Source: Verrucomicrobia subdivision 6 bacterium (GTDB taxonomy: Bacteria > Verrucomicrobiota > Verrucomicrobiia > Methylacidiphilales > Verrucolacustridaceae). From it: DNA of 60,015 bases. The notes beneath the pieces are model-generated. The model saw only the letters and a list, made by a program, of their open reading frames with translations. It was not told the DNA's origin and did not search any database. Below, piece after piece: positions 19,817 through 28,187 of the stretch (positions within the stretch are counted from its first letter, which is position 1; each line of letters opens with the position of its first letter). The DNA lies in assembly GCA_945874125.1 (NCBI GenBank), contig CAMCFB010000004.1, forward strand, positions 1 through 60,015. Direction: 5' to 3'. The position numbers were made by a program, and so were the translations under genes.

Positions 19817-19896
19817 GCAAGTTGTTGTCGGGCAATGGGTTATGAGGGGGGGTTTGGAGGGTTGAGGATATTGGGACACTGGATAGGTTGTTTTTG

Positions 19897-22218
19897 ATGA
19901 AAACGAGTTGGCCGATGAGACGGCCGCTTTTCCCGGTGGCGGTGGCGGCTCTACTTGGCACGGTATTGGGACTGGGGTGGGGAGAGAGCGGGTGGATTTG
20001 GGTGGGTGGGGTTGGGGTGGCGGTAGCGGGGCTGGTTTTTTCACTTTGGGGGCCGAAGCGTTGGAAAACTCCATCAATCTGGATCTTTGTTTTTGGGGTG
20101 TTTGCTCTTTCTGCGGGGACACGAGCGTATGCACCGCCCCGAGATTCGTTGCGGGCTCGGGCGGGGGAGGAGGGCGGGACGGTGATCCTGCAGGGTTGGA
20201 TGGCGGAGCTACCCACCGAGCGAATTTGGCAGAATGGAGAGAAATCGTTGGAAAGCGAGTTGGAGGCCATCTCGATCTTGGGGGACAAGGGTTGGGAGAA
20301 AACAAGCGGAAGGGTTTTATTGCGGGTGGATCCAGCGCCCGAAAAGGTACCGAAGGTGGGTGAGATCGTCCGACTAGCGGGATATTTGGCTCTGCCAGAA
20401 AAGCCCCGAAATCCGGGCGAGTTTGATCGAGTTCAACACCTGCGCGCGAGAGGTTTGGATTATGTTCTAAAAGTCCGTCTCGAGGAGTTGGAGATCGTGG
20501 GGGAGCAGAGGGGGATCCCTCTGGCGAAAATGGCGGCGGCTCTGCGGTCTCACATGATCGCGGCGACCTCGTTGGGATTGGAGAGTGATCCGGAGGCGTC
20601 TGGGTTAATTGCGGCGATGCTTTTTGGATATCGCGATGGCGTGGGGGCGGAGCTACGGGAGGCTTTCCGAAATACGGGCACGCTGCATCTCTTTGCGGTC
20701 AGCGGCCAGAATCTGGCGGTGGTGGCGGGGATGTTGCTTTGGGTTTTGGCTTTGAGCGGGGCGGTGAAGTGGAGATGGGCGTGGACGACATTACCGGCGG
20801 TGTTTCTTTTTTGTTTGGCGACGGGAATGGAGGCAAGTGCCGCTCGGGCGTTTGTCATGACGGGGGTGCTGTATCTGGGATGGATTTTGGGGCGGCCGAT
20901 GGATTCGGCCAACTGGTTGGGGGCGGCGCTGCTCGCTTTGCTGATTTGGGATCCGCGACAGGTGGGAGATGTGGGTTTCCAGCTTTCGTTCCTTGTGGTG
21001 GCGGGATTGATGATTTTTGCCAGTCCGATTCACCACAAGTTGGGGCAGTGGGGTAGGCCGGATGCGTGGATTCCCTTCCGCTTAGTGGCACCGTGGCGGA
21101 GAGCGGGGCAAAAAGTGTGGATGGTGCTAGTCACGCTGGTGGCGGCGTCTTCGGCGGCGTGGTTAGGATCCTTGCTTCCAGCGATTTTTCTTTTTCATCA
21201 AATTACCCCAGTGGCCTTGGCGGCGAATGTGGTGGCGGCTCCGCTGGCGGGTGCGGTGACGGTTTTGGCCGCCGTCTCTTCGGTCGTAGCGCCTTTCGCT
21301 TCGATTGGAGCGATCGGGATCAATCTGCTCAATGCCCGTTTGGTGCATCTGTTGGCTGGGGCCATGGGGTGGATGGCGACGTGGCCGGGGGGTCACTTGG
21401 CCGTGGCGGATCCGAGGGTGTGGTTCGAGCGGAGGCCTGCGGTGGAGGTGATGGCGGTGGAGGGGGCGGCGCCGACGTTTGTGCGGGGAGGTGGAGGAAA
21501 GTGGTTGATTGAAACCGGATCGAAAAGTGAGTGGGCGAATGTCGTCCGGCCCTTTTTACATTTTTTCGGGGTAAATGATTTGGAAGGGGTGATTTTGACG
21601 GCGGGATTGGGCCAGCGTTCGGGGAGTGCCCAAGAGGTGTTGGAGGGTGTTCGGGTGGGGTGGTGGGGGGAGTCGGGCCTGGGTGGGAGATCTCCCCTTT
21701 TGAAAAAGTGGAGAGAGGAGTTAGCCGTTCGAAAAAAAGGCAGGAGATTTTTGCGAAGCGGGGACCGATTGAAGTTGGGTCAGGATTGGATAGCAGAAGT
21801 GCTTTGGCCACCGGAAGGGGAGGGAGTGGGTCGGGGGGAGGAGGACGGAGTGGTGCTGCGGCTGCAGTGTGGTGAGGCACGACTGCTTTGGGCGGGATCG
21901 ATTCCCGGCGATGTGGAAATGAAACTGGTGGAAAAGTATGGAGAGGAGTTGAGATCGGGTGTCTTGGTGGAAGGACCAGCGAAGAGTTTGAATCTAACCC
22001 AGGAGTGGTTGCGGGCGGTCCGACCAAGCTATCTGATTCGATCTTGGAAAGCTCTGGAGGATGATCCTTCCCTGTCGGTCGATTTCGATTCACTGGCACA
22101 GGAGTTGGGGATCACAGTGGTGAAGTTGAAGCATCGCGGAGCGGTACGATTGGGGGTGGAGGCGTCCAGTGGAGAGTGGGCCTTTCGGACTTGGAGAAAA
22201 GAGGCAGAGAAAAATTAG
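19897..22218 (+). CDS. comEC: ComEC/Rec2-family DNA uptake channel with degenerate C-terminal domain
   Basis: Predicted inner-membrane channel for single-stranded DNA in natural transformation. The N-terminal helices and OB-like region (LRVDPAPEKVPKVGEIVRLA) are followed by the competence domain: AMLFGYRDGV, FRNTGTLHLFAVSGQNLAVV and many membrane helices. After about residue 520 comes a beta-lactamase-like region that keeps the fold pattern (GGGGKWLIETGS, GVILTAG, GEARLLWAGSIPG) but has lost the H-x-H-x-D-H, GD and HHGS metal motifs. Length 773. ATG 19897 is used; TTG 19888 is less likely. Nuclease activity of the last domain is therefore not expected. The call rests on the competence domain. 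Confidence 0.85.
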   Translation: MKTSWPMRRPLFPVAVAALLGTVLGLGWGESGWIWVGGVGVAVAGLVFSLWGPKRWKTPSIWIFVFGVFALSAGTRAYAPPRDSLRARAGEEGGTVILQGWMAELPTERIWQNGEKSLESELEAISILGDKGWEKTSGRVLLRVDPAPEKVPKVGEIVRLAGYLALPEKPRNPGEFDRVQHLRARGLDYVLKVRLEELEIVGEQRGIPLAKMAAALRSHMIAATSLGLESDPEASGLIAAMLFGYRDGVGAELREAFRNTGTLHLFAVSGQNLAVVAGMLLWVLALSGAVKWRWAWTTLPAVFLFCLATGMEASAARAFVMTGVLYLGWILGRPMDSANWLGAALLALLIWDPRQVGDVGFQLSFLVVAGLMIFASPIHHKLGQWGRPDAWIPFRLVAPWRRAGQKVWMVLVTLVAASSAAWLGSLLPAIFLFHQITPVALAANVVAAPLAGAVTVLAAVSSVVAPFASIGAIGINLLNARLVHLLAGAMGWMATWPGGHLAVADPRVWFERRPAVEVMAVEGAAPTFVRGGGGKWLIETGSKSEWANVVRPFLHFFGVNDLEGVILTAGLGQRSGSAQEVLEGVRVGWWGESGLGGRSPLLKKWREELAVRKKGRRFLRSGDRLKLGQDWIAEVLWPPEGEGVGRGEEDGVVLRLQCGEARLLWAGSIPGDVEMKLVEKYGEELRSGVLVEGPAKSLNLTQEWLRAVRPSYLIRSWKALEDDPSLSVDFDSLAQELGITVVKLKHRGAVRLGVEASSGEWAFRTWRKEAEKN

Positions 22219-22856
22219 GGAAGCAGAGCACACCCCGCGGTGGGGGCTTTGGGAATTTCGGAGAAGCCAGGCAGATCGGGCGAAAGTGGGGGAAGTTGGA
22301 GTCGGGAGAAGAGATCATTTAGACCGGCGAGAGAAGTTCCGGGCCAGATGGCGGAAACTAGGCCATCCGGCTGGACGAGACTGAAGCACCCCGATTTGGT
22401 AATTCCCAAGCGATGGCCCAGCTGGGAATGAGGATCCCGAAGAGCGGGCAGTTTTTTTCCAGCTTTTGTCATGAACTGATGAATCTGATCCGGTGTTCCC
22501 GCAAAAAGAAAAAACCAGAGGGCTTTTGTTTTACTCCTTTCCATCGCAACAGAAAAATATTTGGCAAACTCGATGCTGCAGTCGCAATCGTGAGAAAAGA
22601 AAACAAGTACCACGGGCTTTTCTTTCGCGAGGGAAGACCAGGGGACGACGCGGTCATCCATGCGATAGAGGAGGCTCTGGGCGATGTTTTGGCCCGTCGA
22701 TTGGTTGAGTGAGATGAGGTCGACCGGAGGTGAGGGATGTCGGCTGGAGATTTTTTCTGTTCGAACGGCGGGGAGATTGGAATTGGGTAAGGTAAGTCCG
22801 TAGATGAGGGCGGCGAGAGCGACCAACAGGAGGGCGATGGGCCAGGGGGATTTCAT
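22215..22856 (-). CDS. Membrane-anchored redoxin-like protein with Cys-X-Cys site
   Basis: An N-terminal signal anchor (WPIALLLVALAALIYGLTL) precedes a thioredoxin/AhpC-like domain. VVLVFFSHDCDCSIEF places Cys91 and Cys93 (C-D-C) where redoxins have their reactive cysteine or CxxC; LVQPDGLVSAIWPG is a typical late strand. A CxC pair can be a low-potential dithiol or a metal site. ATG 22856 was chosen: it follows the ABC gene stop by 5 bp and has AAGAG upstream; an earlier in-frame start would run into that gene. It is the last gene of the propeller-permease-ATPase block. Function is unknown. It could serve copper or disulfide handling for the propeller protein. Confidence 0.6.
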   Translation of the reverse strand: MKSPWPIALLLVALAALIYGLTLPNSNLPAVRTEKISSRHPSPPVDLISLNQSTGQNIAQSLLYRMDDRVVPWSSLAKEKPVVLVFFSHDCDCSIEFAKYFSVAMERSKTKALWFFLFAGTPDQIHQFMTKAGKKLPALRDPHSQLGHRLGITKSGCFSLVQPDGLVSAIWPGTSLAGLNDLFSRLQLPPLSPDLPGFSEIPKAPTAGCALLP

Positions 22857-22861
22857 TTCTC

Positions 22862-24274
22862 TTAGTGGGATGGCATGGCGATCCACGGAGGAACAACGCT
22901 GCCCGAAACCCAGCCGTTAAGCCGGCGAATTTCGTCGGCCGAAAGCCGCGGATCTTTCAGATAAATGTAGTAGTCGTCCTGGCGTTCAAAGAGGTCGCCC
23001 TGAGCCTCCTTCGTTTCACTAATCACCATGGTGCTGGTGATGCGAATATGGAAATAGCCACGGATGAGTTCATCATACTTCGCGGGTAGAAGTTGAAACT
23101 GGAAGGGGATGAGGGTTTTGGTGGGGATCACTTCCCGGATCTTGGTGTCGGAGCCTTCGGTCGTTTCTTGAGGAACGGAGTCCCAGCGCCCGTCCGTCTG
23201 AACAAAAACAAGAATGGAAGGGCCAAGGATAAAGAATCGACGCGATGAGTCATAGTTCTGGAGGAACAGATTTGCATGGACGTTGCCGTCGCCCTTGGCC
23301 TCGAAGGAGTCCACATCGGCCCGGAGTTGGCGAAAGGCGATTTCCTCGGTGATGCGTTTCTTTTCCTGTTTCGCCCAAAGTTGGCGTCCTTGGGACCAGG
23401 CGATGATCCGGTCAGTCGAGTAGAGGAGGGATGCTCCCAAAAGCAGGCTGGCCAGGAAGAAGGAGGCGGGTCCCCGCCAATCCCCGACGGGAGCGGGTTT
23501 GGGTTTCTCTTCGGTAGCCAGGCCCTGGGGGGCTTTTTCGAAAACCGGCCCCTGTCTTTGGATCAGGGAAGAGCGAACAGTTTCGGCGGGGGGTTTTTCC
23601 GTGAGAGCCAGTTGTCCGGCGGACATTTGAAATACCCGGTCAGCGAGGGAGGCGAGTTGGTTGCCATGAGTAACGGCGAGGATGGCAAGTTTCCGTTCGT
23701 CCCGAAGTTCACGCATGACTGTGAGAATTTCTTCCTCGGCCAATGGGTCAAGGTTGCTGGTGGGTTCGTCCAGCAGCAGAAGAGCGGGTTCATGTTGGAG
23801 GGCGCGTGCGAGAGAGACTCGGCGTTGTTGGCCACCGGAAAGTTCATTGGGAAAGGCATCCCAACGGTCCCCCATCCCCAGACGGGTGAGAAGTTTTTGG
23901 GCGCGGGAATAGGCCTGATGTTGGGATTCACCGGCCAGCAGTCCGGGAAGGGCAGCATTATCTAGGGCGGTGAGTCCGGGAAGGAGGGAGTTGGTTTGGA
24001 GCATGAAGCCTATCCGGTGGGCGCGGAGATGGGCGAGTTTTCGGGGCGAGAGTTGAAGGAGGTCGATGCCTTCAAGATAGAGGGTGCCGTGGTCGGGTCG
24101 GGCGAGTGCTCCCAAGAGGGCCATCAGGGTGGATTTTCCCGACCCAGAACGACCACAGATGGCGACGAATTCGCCCGACTGGATTCCGATGGAAACCTGG
24201 CGGACGGCCGCGATGGAACCTCGCCGGGCGGGATAGATACGGCTGAGATTTTGGGCGTCGAGGATCACGCTCAT
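22862..24274 (-). CDS. ABC transporter ATPase (LolD/MacB type) fused to membrane-anchored extracytoplasmic domain
   Basis: The first 225 residues are a complete ATPase of the LolD/MacB/FtsE class: Walker A GRSGSGKST (41-49), signature LSGGQQRR (S146 region), Walker B LLLLDEPTSNLD and VTHGN. A linker leads to one transmembrane helix at about 270-287 (SFFLASLLLGASLLYSTD), then about 180 residues of unknown fold, presumably periplasmic. Such an appendage is not usual for an ABC ATPase. ATG 24274 overlaps the permease stop (ATGA); a longer frame to 24547 is an antisense-like extension over the permease and lacks family similarity. It works with the permease upstream. Confidence 0.85.
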   Translation of the reverse strand: MSVILDAQNLSRIYPARRGSIAAVRQVSIGIQSGEFVAICGRSGSGKSTLMALLGALARPDHGTLYLEGIDLLQLSPRKLAHLRAHRIGFMLQTNSLLPGLTALDNAALPGLLAGESQHQAYSRAQKLLTRLGMGDRWDAFPNELSGGQQRRVSLARALQHEPALLLLDEPTSNLDPLAEEEILTVMRELRDERKLAILAVTHGNQLASLADRVFQMSAGQLALTEKPPAETVRSSLIQRQGPVFEKAPQGLATEEKPKPAPVGDWRGPASFFLASLLLGASLLYSTDRIIAWSQGRQLWAKQEKKRITEEIAFRQLRADVDSFEAKGDGNVHANLFLQNYDSSRRFFILGPSILVFVQTDGRWDSVPQETTEGSDTKIREVIPTKTLIPFQFQLLPAKYDELIRGYFHIRITSTMVISETKEAQGDLFERQDDYYIYLKDPRLSADEIRRLNGWVSGSVVPPWIAMPSH

Positions 24275-25500
24275 TCGCCGCTTCCTCGGAGAAGTTGATA
24301 GACCTCGCGACCCGCCAGCCGCCAAGAGGGAATGAGGGCGCCGAGTCCGGCCACCAGAGAGCCAAGCAGGAGGCTGAGCCAGGCGGCAAAAATTTGGGAG
24401 GAGATAGAGGGGAGTTCGAAGGTGATACCACGGGAAGTGAGAAGATAACCGAAGGTTCGGACGAAGACCGATAGGCCGATCGCGCCGAGGAGAACTCCGA
24501 AAAGCGCGCCGAGGAAAGCGCAAAGAGCGGCTTCCATCGATAGCCATAAGGAGAGCCCGACTCGGGAAAGGCCCATGGCGAGGAGTAATCCGAGCTCCGC
24601 TTTGCGTTCGGCGACAATTCCGGCGTAGACAACCATGATCAGGAGTCCGGCCATTCCTAGGCCAACGAGGGGGAACGCGATCGAGCCAGCAAGGATGGTT
24701 CGGATCGATTGGCGGACCTGAATCCCGAGTCCGGAGCCGCTAATGATCTGAACTTCAGGGACAGAGGAGAGGGCGAAGCGGACATGACCCGCCCCTGCGC
24801 CCGGCGACAAGCGGAGGAGAAGGGCGGAGGGGGCACCCGTCATCGAGGAAGTTCCGAAGGTTTGGATTCCGTGGGATTTGGCCTCATGGGCAAGTTCATT
24901 CACGGTGGAAAAAGAGGCAAAGACCGATCGTTCGGTGGGGCCGACACCCGTTCGCTCAAGTTTTCCCCAGACGAGCAAACTCTGGCCAAAGAAATTGATG
25001 GTTGAGCCCAGAGGTTCTGGGCGACGTCCCCCGACCAAGACATCGTTTTGGGAAAAGGGGCGGGGCAGGTGTTCTCGAATCCAGGGTTGTAAGGTGAAAT
25101 CGGTCGAAGGATCGAAAGCGATCAGATCGGTTTCGCCATGGCCTTCATCCGAGGGAATGGAAAAGTGGCGTTGGGGGGAGATTTTTTCCAAACCGGGGAG
25201 AGATTCGATTCTTTGAAAAACCGATGGGTCGAGCTGAGGGGCATTGGGTTCCCCGGCCAGAAGGGCGGCGGTGAGGTTGTGGGTGATTCCTTTGGGGAGG
25301 ATGAGGAGATCCGCTCCCAAACGATCGAGGGAGGTTTCGAGGCCACGGCGAATCGAATCGCGGACGACCAAAGTGAGAAAGATCGAAGCGGAACCGATGG
25401 CGACGGCGAGGGCCAGAAGGAGGTAGCGGCCAGGACTTCGTCGGGTCTCTTGCAGGAGGAGGCGAAACGCCAGCGAGAGAAGGCGGTATCGGTGAAGCAG
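24271..25500 (-). CDS. ABC transporter permease, FtsX/MacB/LolE family, start unclear
   Basis: Four-helix MacB-type permease with a large extracytoplasmic domain between helices 1 and 2. The core region IRRGLETSLDRLGADLLILP and the C-terminal helices (VGLGMAGLLIMVVYAGIVAE, ERKAELGLLLAMGLSR, WLSLLLGSLVAGLGALIPSW) match the family, whose members move lipoproteins, peptides or metals or act as mechanotransmitters. The first usual start codon is TTG 25371, but this cuts helix 1: the frame is open further, and LLLALAVAIGSASIFLTLVV is encoded just upstream, as far as 25518. No ATG, GTG or TTG exists there, so a CTG near 25500 is drawn as a provisional start. It overlaps the ATPase gene by 4 nt. Confidence 0.8.
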   Translation of the reverse strand: MLHRYRLLSLAFRLLLQETRRSPGRYLLLALAVAIGSASIFLTLVVRDSIRRGLETSLDRLGADLLILPKGITHNLTAALLAGEPNAPQLDPSVFQRIESLPGLEKISPQRHFSIPSDEGHGETDLIAFDPSTDFTLQPWIREHLPRPFSQNDVLVGGRRPEPLGSTINFFGQSLLVWGKLERTGVGPTERSVFASFSTVNELAHEAKSHGIQTFGTSSMTGAPSALLLRLSPGAGAGHVRFALSSVPEVQIISGSGLGIQVRQSIRTILAGSIAFPLVGLGMAGLLIMVVYAGIVAERKAELGLLLAMGLSRVGLSLWLSMEAALCAFLGALFGVLLGAIGLSVFVRTFGYLLTSRGITFELPSISSQIFAAWLSLLLGSLVAGLGALIPSWRLAGREVYQLLRGSGE

Positions 25501-25505
25501 ATGGG

Positions 25506-27101
25506 TTAGACCGTGCAGCTACGACTGTATTTCATTTCTTCCACCTTGGAAGGAACGATGACGCAGTCGTGGTGTCCGCCGAAGTTGGGCATGTAGCCGA
25601 CCTGTTCGAGGGTGTCCTGGCGAAAGACAAAGGCACCGGATTCCATGCGTTGGAATCCCGAAAAGATCACCAAGGCATATTTGCCGTCATAGGTGGTGGC
25701 GGTGGTCTGGGTATCAACGCCGACATTGCGGAACTTTTTGATAACTTTCCAATCCTTGGTGCTCACGACATAAACATCTGACTTCATCGGCTTTGGTCGA
25801 AGGACGGTGAAGAAGCATTTGGAACCATCGATGGAGAAGTTAACGTGGAAAGGGGATGGGTATTCGCCCTGCCACTCCTTATCCTTGACGAAAGTGATCC
25901 TTTTCCATGCTCGGGGATCGTCGCTGGAGGTGTCGAATACGGCAACGTTGTTGGCGCGGAGATTGTTCATCATCACCAGGTGATTCCCGGAAGGGTTGAA
26001 GCCGGTCTCGTGGATGGGGTTCCCGACTGAGGGAAGGGTCACCTCCCAAGTGTCTGGGCTGTTGGAGACTTTTTTCACGGGCCAGTTATCGGCGAGACCT
26101 TCATTGGCCATCACGTAGCAAACGGGCTCCATGGAGGTACGGTCGATAATAAAACCGCCTCCGCACATGCGAAGACCGGCGATGGAGTAGCGGTTGCGCG
26201 GGTCGTGCAGGCAAAAATCCAGACCCGTCAGGGTGTGGGGGCTTGCCCCGGGAGTTTGACCTTTCTCGACCAGGAGTTCGGCCATGGGAGCCATCTCGTA
26301 GTTCAGTTTGTTTCCCTTGGTCCCGTAGTAGTCGTATTTCCCGTCTTTTCCCGGGGCCAGTTTGATGAGACGAATGGTTCCCCCCTTCGTCCAAGTTTCG
26401 GCCAGAACCTTCGAGTTCGGCACCCAATCGCCCCGGAAGGCGGTGAGGACTTTCGTTTTGTCCTGGCCGCGGGCACGGGAGAAAAACCCCACGACATCCT
26501 TTTGACCGTCGGCGCAAGCAAAGCCCTGGCCATCTGGGAAAGGGACCGTATGAACGCCTAAACCCACTCCCGTTGTTTCGGAAACATCCTCGAGGAGTTC
26601 CATCTGATTCGATTTTCCATCGTAGCCGACGCGGTAGATGTGGTTTCCCATTCCGTATTGGTCGAGCATGCCGTGCTCTTTGATCTTGGTTTTGAGGCCG
26701 TACATCAGGACATTATCGCCCCCTTGGGTGGAGTTAATAAATTCAAAGCCTTTATAGGGGTCTCCGCTATCGGCATAGAAAGCGGCTAAATGGTGGGAGA
26801 TCGGGCAGGAGTCCCCGTAGTTCCAGTAGGAGATCCAAGCGAGGGTTTTTTGGGTTCCCAAATCGACGGCATGGGTTCCCCCGCCCAGCTTTTGTGGGGT
26901 GAGGTAGATGTATTTTCCGAGGGACTCGCGAATGCCTTGGTAGACGGCATCTTCGATCAGGATCCCGTCTTCTTTTTTGGCGGCAAAGGAGGTGCCCGGG
27001 AGGTAGCGGGTGAGGCCGGCACCGGTCAGGCCAGCTAAGCCAGCAAATCCGTACGAAAAGAAGCGACGGCGACTGATTTTTTCCAGGTGGGCCTTCGACA
27101 T
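25506..27101 (-). CDS. Tat-exported NosZ-like beta-propeller protein without CuA domain
   Basis: A twin-arginine signal (SRRRFFSYGFAGLAGLTGAG) heads a 531-residue protein of repeated propeller strands. The pattern resembles the N-terminal propeller of nitrous oxide reductase: a His pair in ISHHLAAFYAD (103-104), GNHIYRVG (154), IHETGFNPSGNH (364), SPFHVNFSIDG (419), then DGKYALVIFSGF, and GGHHDCVIVP (510-511). Most copper-Z type His positions seem kept, but one (the PGH loop, here VGVDTQTTAT) is not, and there is no C-terminal cupredoxin. A copper-binding methanethiol-oxidase-like propeller is the main alternative. It begins the block with the ABC permease, ATPase and CxC redoxin. Activity is unknown. 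Confidence 0.6.
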   Translation of the reverse strand: MSKAHLEKISRRRFFSYGFAGLAGLTGAGLTRYLPGTSFAAKKEDGILIEDAVYQGIRESLGKYIYLTPQKLGGGTHAVDLGTQKTLAWISYWNYGDSCPISHHLAAFYADSGDPYKGFEFINSTQGGDNVLMYGLKTKIKEHGMLDQYGMGNHIYRVGYDGKSNQMELLEDVSETTGVGLGVHTVPFPDGQGFACADGQKDVVGFFSRARGQDKTKVLTAFRGDWVPNSKVLAETWTKGGTIRLIKLAPGKDGKYDYYGTKGNKLNYEMAPMAELLVEKGQTPGASPHTLTGLDFCLHDPRNRYSIAGLRMCGGGFIIDRTSMEPVCYVMANEGLADNWPVKKVSNSPDTWEVTLPSVGNPIHETGFNPSGNHLVMMNNLRANNVAVFDTSSDDPRAWKRITFVKDKEWQGEYPSPFHVNFSIDGSKCFFTVLRPKPMKSDVYVVSTKDWKVIKKFRNVGVDTQTTATTYDGKYALVIFSGFQRMESGAFVFRQDTLEQVGYMPNFGGHHDCVIVPSKVEEMKYSRSCTV

Positions 27102-27176: not shown

Positions 27177-28187
27177 TTACTGGCGAAAAAAGAGGTGGGT
27201 GGAGAGATAGTAAAGTTTTCCGGCTTGAAGGTGGAAGGATTCGGGGACAAGGCTGACTTGGACTTTGGGGTTGGTGTCCTGCTTTTGGCCGAGGAATCGG
27301 AAAAGTCGGCTGAAGTGGAAGGGGGCGTTGTAGCGAATGACGGGAGCGTTCTCAGGGAGCTTGGCAATTTCACGGGCATCGGCGATGGCGTCCTGCAGAT
27401 ATCCCGTGGCATCGATTAATTTTAGATCAAGGGCCTGCTTTCCTGAAACAATCCGGCCATCCGCCACCTCGGTGGGTAATTTCTGGTCAGGAAAATCACG
27501 TTCGGTCGCGACGATGGAGGAGAACTTTTCGAACGTCTCCGCCACCATGTCTTGAACCAGTTTCTTTTCCGCCTCGGAGGCGGGACGGGACGGGTTGAGG
27601 AGATCTTTGAGGGCGCCGCTTTTGAAAGTGAGGGTGGAAAGGCCGAGGATTTTGGAAAGGCCCTCGTAGTTGATCGCCTGCATGATGACCCCGATACTGC
27701 CCGTGAGACAAAGTTCATGAGCCATGATGTGGGACCCGCCCATGGCGGTGTAGTAGCCCCCGGATGCACCGACGGAGTCGAGATAGACGATGACGGGTTT
27801 GTTTAGGCGAACGAGAGTGAGTTCGTGATAGAGATTGTCGCTGGCGGTGACTTCACCTCCCGGGCTGTCGATATGAAGGAGAATGGCGGCGATGGAATCG
27901 TCATCGGCCGCTTGGCGAATCTGAAGGATGAGATCATCGACCATGCTGGCGCCAATTTGACCGGGGATCTCCTGAGCGATCACCCCGAAGAGATCGATTT
28001 TAGCGATGCGACTTTTTTGCGAATCGTCCCCCTCGACCAGCTCCTCTTCAAAGTAAGGTGCGGGCTGGATACGGGGGGAGTTGGTGAGCAGATGATGATC
28101 TTGAGAGAGGAAGAGGAGATTGGCGAGGAGGCTGCTTCCGAGCAGAATCAGTCCCACGATGAAAAGGAGTTTCGAGCGGCGGAGCAT
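27177..28187 (-). CDS. sppA: SppA-type signal peptide peptidase, S49 family
   Basis: Membrane-anchored serine protease that clears cleaved signal peptides. An N-terminal anchor (LLFIVGLILLGSSLLANLLF) precedes the S49 domain with HIDSPGGEV, YLDSVGASGGYY (catalytic Ser142) and FKSGALKDLLNP (Lys194). The Ser-Lys spacing of 52 residues equals that I recall for Bacillus SppA. At 336 residues it is the short single-domain form, which should assemble as a ring. It is divergent from tilS, 13 bp apart, and lies 75 bp upstream of the propeller gene in the same direction, so it may head that transcript. Confidence 0.92.
   Translation of the reverse strand: MLRRSKLLFIVGLILLGSSLLANLLFLSQDHHLLTNSPRIQPAPYFEEELVEGDDSQKSRIAKIDLFGVIAQEIPGQIGASMVDDLILQIRQAADDDSIAAILLHIDSPGGEVTASDNLYHELTLVRLNKPVIVYLDSVGASGGYYTAMGGSHIMAHELCLTGSIGVIMQAINYEGLSKILGLSTLTFKSGALKDLLNPSRPASEAEKKLVQDMVAETFEKFSSIVATERDFPDQKLPTEVADGRIVSGKQALDLKLIDATGYLQDAIADAREIAKLPENAPVIRYNAPFHFSRLFRFLGQKQDTNPKVQVSLVPESFHLQAGKLYYLSTHLFFRQ

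Follow-up and report, generated by a model that had tools for sequence, protein, structure and literature searches.

Which enzyme is encoded by four closely packed genes of a small verrucomicrobial genome, and do its neighbours serve to build it? The question arises from a stretch of 60,015 nt from a Verrucomicrobia subdivision 6 bacterium (contig CAMCFB010000004.1 of assembly GCA_945874125.1, positions 1 to 60,015; the window), whose source assembly comprises 1.38 Mb and is 80% complete. A preliminary description, made from the letters alone, had noted a block of four minus-strand genes at 22215-27101 and proposed a copper enzyme resembling nitrous oxide reductase (NosZ), together with ATP-binding cassette (ABC) genes and a redoxin. 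The open reading frame (ORF) coordinates in the window agree with such a block. We observed, however, that the propeller is a relative of thiocyanate dehydrogenase (TcDH) and not of NosZ, and on balance we regard the block as encoding a periplasmic oxidoreductase of the TcDH family plus a dedicated maturation apparatus. The features are as follows:

25506..27101, minus strand: seven-bladed beta-propeller of the TcDH family, 531 amino acids (aa), predicted tri-copper oxidoreductase (phmmer against the PDB, active-site residues, twin-arginine translocation (Tat) motif)
25707..25709, minus strand: codon of Gln465, the natural equivalent of H482Q (computed from the ORF start at 27101)
24271..25518, minus strand: MacB/FtsX-type ABC permease (Pfam; homologues beside TcDH in Planctomycetota, Myxococcota and Alphaproteobacteria)
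22862..24274, minus strand: LolD/MacB-like ABC ATPase with a C-terminal transmembrane helix and an extracytoplasmic beta-sandwich tail (Pfam, sequence, model)
22865..23395, minus strand: tail domain within the ATPase gene (alignments)
22215..22856, minus strand: membrane-anchored ResA/TlpA-like redoxin (profile against the PDB, AlphaFold 2 (AF2) fold, Cys conservation)

The assignment of the enzyme is based on a phmmer search of the PDB, in which residues 55-530 of the propeller matched the solved TcDH structures with E-values of 1e-111 to 1e-129 (best 9e-129) and an identity of 41-46%. No Pfam family was matched at E<1, and a match to hydrazine synthase beta (E 0.03) was taken as generic propeller similarity. 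The N-terminus carries the motif S-R-R-R-F-F at residues 10-15, followed by a hydrophobic stretch, which bears out the Tat export that had been predicted. When compared with the thirteen active-site residues of TcDH (PMC6504805, Figure 4), twelve were found to be identical (K71, H103, H104, Q126, H184, E269, D295, H364, H419, H511, D512 and R527). The thirteenth, His482, is replaced by Gln465, and this is the loop His that had correctly been reported as missing; as His482 is not kept, we file the protein as a member of the TcDH family and not as a proven TcDH. PDB entries 6sji and 8yu5 also have Gln at this position, while 5oex, 6uwe and 8q9x have His in an otherwise matching sequence. The first two are presumably engineered mutants, so that their depositors would have seen the residue as important. 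Among the His residues named earlier as candidate copper ligands, 103, 104, 364, 419 and 511 are invariant in an alignment of 20 TcDH homologues and His510 is kept in 19 of them, but His154 is conserved in only 7 of the 20 and was rejected as a ligand; His184, a further His of the site that is invariant in all 20, had been overlooked. From these residues we infer that the enzyme would hold three copper ions. Within the genus it is 90-100% identical and thereby the most conserved protein of the block, the redoxin reaching 55-73% when the same loci are compared.

Homologues were searched in ~1,800 genomes, in contigs of GTDB genomes and in plasmids. All 20 aligned homologues keep the twelve other active-site residues. 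Position 482 is His in two solved enzymes and five gammaproteobacteria, and Gln (Q-type) in Verrucomicrobiota, Planctomycetota, two genomes from the Myxococcota search, Alphaproteobacteria (a Methylocella tundrae plasmid), a Pseudomonadota genome (L065) and a deep planctomycete branch (L052). In the tree, the sequences with Gln or Glu form one clade (support 98/95) with the exception of L052, whose uncertain placement makes one or two changes of His482 possible. Glu is seen only in the homologue of a Methylococcaceae UBA2778 metagenome-assembled genome (MAG; L053), where neither an ABC cassette nor a redoxin gene lies close by and the genome contains no tail. Since the verrucomicrobial sequences are nested with those of two planctomycete-class genomes (support 99/98) and the TcDH gene was found in no other genus among 171 sampled in the class, an ancestor of the genus likely gained the enzyme gene horizontally. 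The closest named contigs to the window belong to the Verrucomicrobia subdivision 6 BACL9 MAGs, whose enzyme is 100% identical. BACL9 is part of the typically freshwater LD19 clade, which is sister to Methylacidiphilum and has no methane monooxygenase genes (PMC4699468). Seven of the 21 genus members (G001, G004, G006, G008, G009, G010 and G012) have neither TcDH nor tail, which appears to exceed random incompleteness and possibly marks a sublineage without the cassette.

Some further loci were recorded in the same search. In Singulisphaera acidiphila DSM 18658 (L015, 8237-9998) the TcDH-like gene is disrupted near residue 195. The insertion, a 1.76-kb element, is bounded by 15-bp terminal inverted repeats and encodes a transposase of 489 aa, which is presumably IS1380-like. 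In another planctomycete (L059/G959, C251:52989-53708) the TcDH-like gene is cut at the same residue 195 and runs directly into the final 59 residues of the tail, as would result from a loss of the cassette's middle part. On plasmid 2 of the methanotroph Methylocella tundrae (L031, 43735-48463) a Q-type enzyme is accompanied by permease and ATPase, and the tail has a gene of its own; the cassette proteins are annotated as hypothetical or generic ABC. In a gammaproteobacterium (L054:11598-11909) the full gene is followed by a second, short TcDH-like fragment (104 aa), which recalls the duplicated TcDH fragment reported in Guyparkeria (PMC6504805).

The permease matched the Pfam families FtsX (PF02687, 1e-9) and MacB_PCD (PF12704, 1.7e-6), as its earlier description as MacB-type had implied, and is built of one N-terminal and three C-terminal hydrophobic helices. 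The ATPase matched ABC_tran (1.1e-31), and its best NCBIfam matches were MacB and LolD, both below the whole-protein cut-offs; by these matches the pair passes as a MacB/FtsX-type ABC system. A transmembrane helix between ATPase and tail can be read from the sequence, and the tail was modelled as a helix and a beta-sandwich (predicted local distance difference test (pLDDT) 85.5), in accordance with the extracytoplasmic tail that had been described. At the very end of the protein a motif P-x-[W/F]-[I/M]-x-M-P-x-H is conserved throughout. The tail had no Pfam or PDB sequence match above chance; hemagglutinin matches of its profile (E 0.7 or worse) and FlaG/Kir fold matches (TM-score mostly <0.5) were taken as chance or generic beta-sandwich similarity.

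Of 11 Q-type lineages whose gene neighbourhoods could be read, 10 have the ABC genes next to the enzyme gene, so that the case named in the preliminary description as fatal to its proposal, homologues always apart from the ABC genes, did not arise. Permease, ATPase and tail adjoin the enzyme in the Verrucomicrobia and in L011, L012, L015, L031, L049, L050, L051, L065 and L066; the tail is a standalone gene in Methylocella (L031) and fused to the ATPase in the other cassettes. A search of 43 genomes with the tail profile gave matches only in those with a TcDH of the Q-type clade (the TcDH copy in G959 is truncated), at one place per genome apart from extras at contig ends. Within the genus, the tail is present in 12 of 14 TcDH-positive and in none of 7 TcDH-negative genomes (one-sided Fisher test, by hand, p ~3e-4). 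In the two TcDH-positive genomes without it, the TcDH match is a fragment (G003) or ends near a contig end (G017). This association of the tail with the Q-type enzyme and nothing else argues for a dedicated role.

For the redoxin, a profile search of the PDB found ResA (1e-13), which was also the best fold match of the AF2 model (pLDDT 92.4). The protein has the thioredoxin fold of the ResA/TlpA family, but a C-x-C and an extra C-terminal Cys instead of C-x-x-C; the C-x-C and this third Cys, in a T-x-G-C near the C-terminus, are conserved in 10 of 10 Q-type redoxin partners. The sequence suggests that translation probably starts at the ATG at 22856, 5 nt past the ATPase stop, where MKSPW is conserved. 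With this start the C-x-C occupies residues 91-93, the numbering given before, and from the GTG at 22886 it would occupy 101-103. The permease ends at 24271 and the ATPase ATG stands at 24274, which gives a 4-nt ATGA overlap, and in favor of this start the longer ORF start at 24547 was dropped. Both junctions agree with the 4-nt or very short spacings noted at the outset. The start of the permease is ambiguous, as no ATG is present and TTG 25518 is one option. The four genes recur as a group, in changed order, in other phyla, and the block is far above chance. Scans for promoters and terminators gave no more sites than shuffled sequences did. The redoxin end of the block is bordered by comEC (19888-22218) on the opposite strand, and upstream lies sppA (27177-28187) on the same strand.

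How might these parts work together? The propeller would fold in the cytoplasm and exit by the Tat pathway. Judging by residue identity, its central channel would bind three copper ions through His and Asp ligands common with TcDH, and the enzyme may take two electrons from its presumed substrate, thiocyanate or a similar sulfur pseudohalide, and hand them to a periplasmic carrier. FtsX-type permeases usually pass force to periplasmic partners (MacB, LolCDE, FtsEX), and for this reason we favor ATP-driven maturation over transport as the presumed role of the ABC complex: permease and ATPase would form a mechanical machine and not a channel, with ATP hydrolysis moving the extracytoplasmic tail. 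The Met-Pro-x-His end of the tail could present Cu(I) and load or remodel the copper site, by analogy with NosDFY and NosZ. The C-x-C redoxin may keep copper or its ligands reduced, or accept a zero-valent sulfur product. Having Gln for His482, the enzyme probably runs a reaction tuned in another way than in sulfur oxidisers, which may serve detoxification or auxiliary electron supply, not lithotrophy.

Several observations weigh against a TcDH-family oxidoreductase with its own maturation apparatus. The full diagnostic set of thirteen TcDH residues, His482 included, is not present in the window enzyme, and the block holds no cytochrome or copper-handling gene. A fold search gave no convincing structural relative of the tail, and copper binding by its C-terminus is therefore a guess. 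The Q-type lineage L052/G847 lacks the tail gene altogether and has no ABC neighbours at the enzyme locus, and such ABC genes are likewise missing beside the enzyme gene at the gammaproteobacterial His-type loci. A redoxin was not found beside the enzyme gene in L031 (Methylocella), L065, L066 and L052, and since it is missing beside the first three of these cassettes, it must be dispensable in at least some lineages. The search for cyanase was negative in 11 genomes of the genus, while the L011 genome and the control did yield it, and SoxB had no match in the genus. A search for flavocytochrome c (PF09242) returned nothing, but no control matched, so that this is not evidence of absence. With no match to cyanase or SoxB in the genus, thiocyanate lithotrophy as in Thioalkalivibrio is unlikely, although the cyanase point alone is weak because Thioalkalivibrio itself is reported to lack the enzyme (PMC6504805). 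More likely than lithotrophic growth on thiocyanate are detoxification, an auxiliary supply of electrons or a different substrate.

The Q-type clade could also be a separate enzyme that acts on another small sulfur or nitrogen substrate and not on thiocyanate, which we take seriously but hold to be somewhat improbable. It would agree with the replacement of His482 by Gln across the whole of a deep clade with good tree support (by Glu in one member), with the lack of detectable cyanase or SoxB in the genus and with the occurrence of most members in taxa not known as sulfur oxidisers. Yet every complete member keeps the other twelve active-site residues. The record name 'scnpilot' suggests that one member, Myxococcales 68-20 (L011), was obtained from a thiocyanate-reactor metagenome, and cyanase is present in its genome. 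Rather doubtful, in our view, is the fuller proposal of a distinct tri-copper enzyme with its own substrate, whose site is built by an FtsX-type ABC complex with a Cu-presenting tail; if true, this would be a second, independently evolved ABC-driven system of copper-site assembly beside NosDFY. We consider it unlikely that the ABC genes encode a true transporter, for copper import or delivery or for cyanate or sulfur export, and not a mechanical maturation machine. The demand for copper is obvious, and a role of the Thioalkalivibrio ABC genes in copper uptake was proposed by Berben et al. (PMC5328954). The motifs of P1B copper ATPases were found by Berben et al. to be absent. Moreover, no substrate-binding protein is encoded, and the tail is extracytoplasmic and cassette-specific. 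The permease is of the MacB/FtsX type, whose known members exert mechanical action on partners in the periplasm. A catalytically inactive scaffold or a copper-storage protein would fit the loss of one catalytic-shell His, but is very improbable in view of the strict conservation of the other active-site residues and the 90-100% identity across the genus. The CuZ enzyme like NosZ that was proposed first is hardly credible, for although a beta-propeller fold and a His-rich, axial copper site are common to both, the PDB search gave TcDH at E 1e-111 or better and no NosZ, no NosZ propeller or CuA homology was found in Pfam, His154 is not conserved, and a nos_propeller search of the genome, run without a positive control, gave no support. 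What stands of the preliminary description is the copper-dependent, Tat-exported periplasmic enzyme with its own ABC machinery, for which homology and co-occurrence give good support; the kinship with NosZ and the claim that no such system has been described do not.

TcDH, which turns thiocyanate into cyanate and sulfur with cytochrome c, has so far been treated as an enzyme of a few sulfur-oxidising Proteobacteria. Members of its family now turn up in Verrucomicrobia of the small-genome, freshwater and brackish LD19 (BACL9) group, among Planctomycetes and on the plasmid of a methanotroph. The natural His482-to-Gln version, as in two deposited structures, offers a test of the role of this residue, and with Gln at the catalytic His position the real reaction of the window enzyme becomes a testable question. 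The cassette-specific ABC and tail genes likewise make the periplasmic assembly of a three-copper site testable.

Among known systems, NosZ is a copper-site propeller helped by the ABC complex NosDFY (and NosL). The likeness to the window block is one of functional analogy only, as no sequence relation was found and NosY is not an FtsX-type permease. The solved TcDH enzymes (Thioalkalivibrio paradoxus 5f75, 5oex and 6sji; second group 8q9x and 8yu5) are of the same family and share with the window enzyme Tat export, 12 of the 13 active-site residues and, as predicted, the tri-copper site. The window enzyme differs by Gln465 for His482, its separate clade (98/95) and an identity of 41-46%, and copCD, tatA, fccAB and the two-component genes of those systems are not in its block. 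Earlier descriptions cover TcDH operons of Thioalkalivibrio with ABC permease/ATPase pairs (PMC5328954, PMC5744179) and, for Thiohalobacter and Guyparkeria, a thioredoxin-like gene immediately preceding TcDH (PMC6504805). Two permease/ATPase pairs and a single-helix anchored protein are upregulated together with TcDH on thiocyanate in Thioalkalivibrio, the permease has the same one-plus-three helix plan, and copper acquisition and incorporation by TcDH are stated to be undetermined (PMC5744179). The window block resembles this operon in that permease/ATPase genes and the gene of a membrane-anchored protein with a single helix come after TcDH; however, Thioalkalivibrio has two ABC pairs and separate hypothetical genes, whereas the window has one pair, a tail fused to the ATPase and a C-x-C redoxin. 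At the TcDH locus of Thiohalobacter and Guyparkeria (similar loci L054-L058) the redoxin directly before TcDH is linked to that of the window by iterated profiles, but it has no cysteines, the enzyme keeps His482, and no such ABC genes stand beside TcDH in L054-L058. Three entries of a published Thioalkalivibrio permease tree (KRO62015.1, KRP32447.1 and KRP34113.1) have what we take to be accessions of the Baltic-MAG type and may represent the permease gene described here. The locus is a known system extended: to new host phyla, with a natural Gln at position 482, one fused ABC-tail unit and a C-x-C redoxin.

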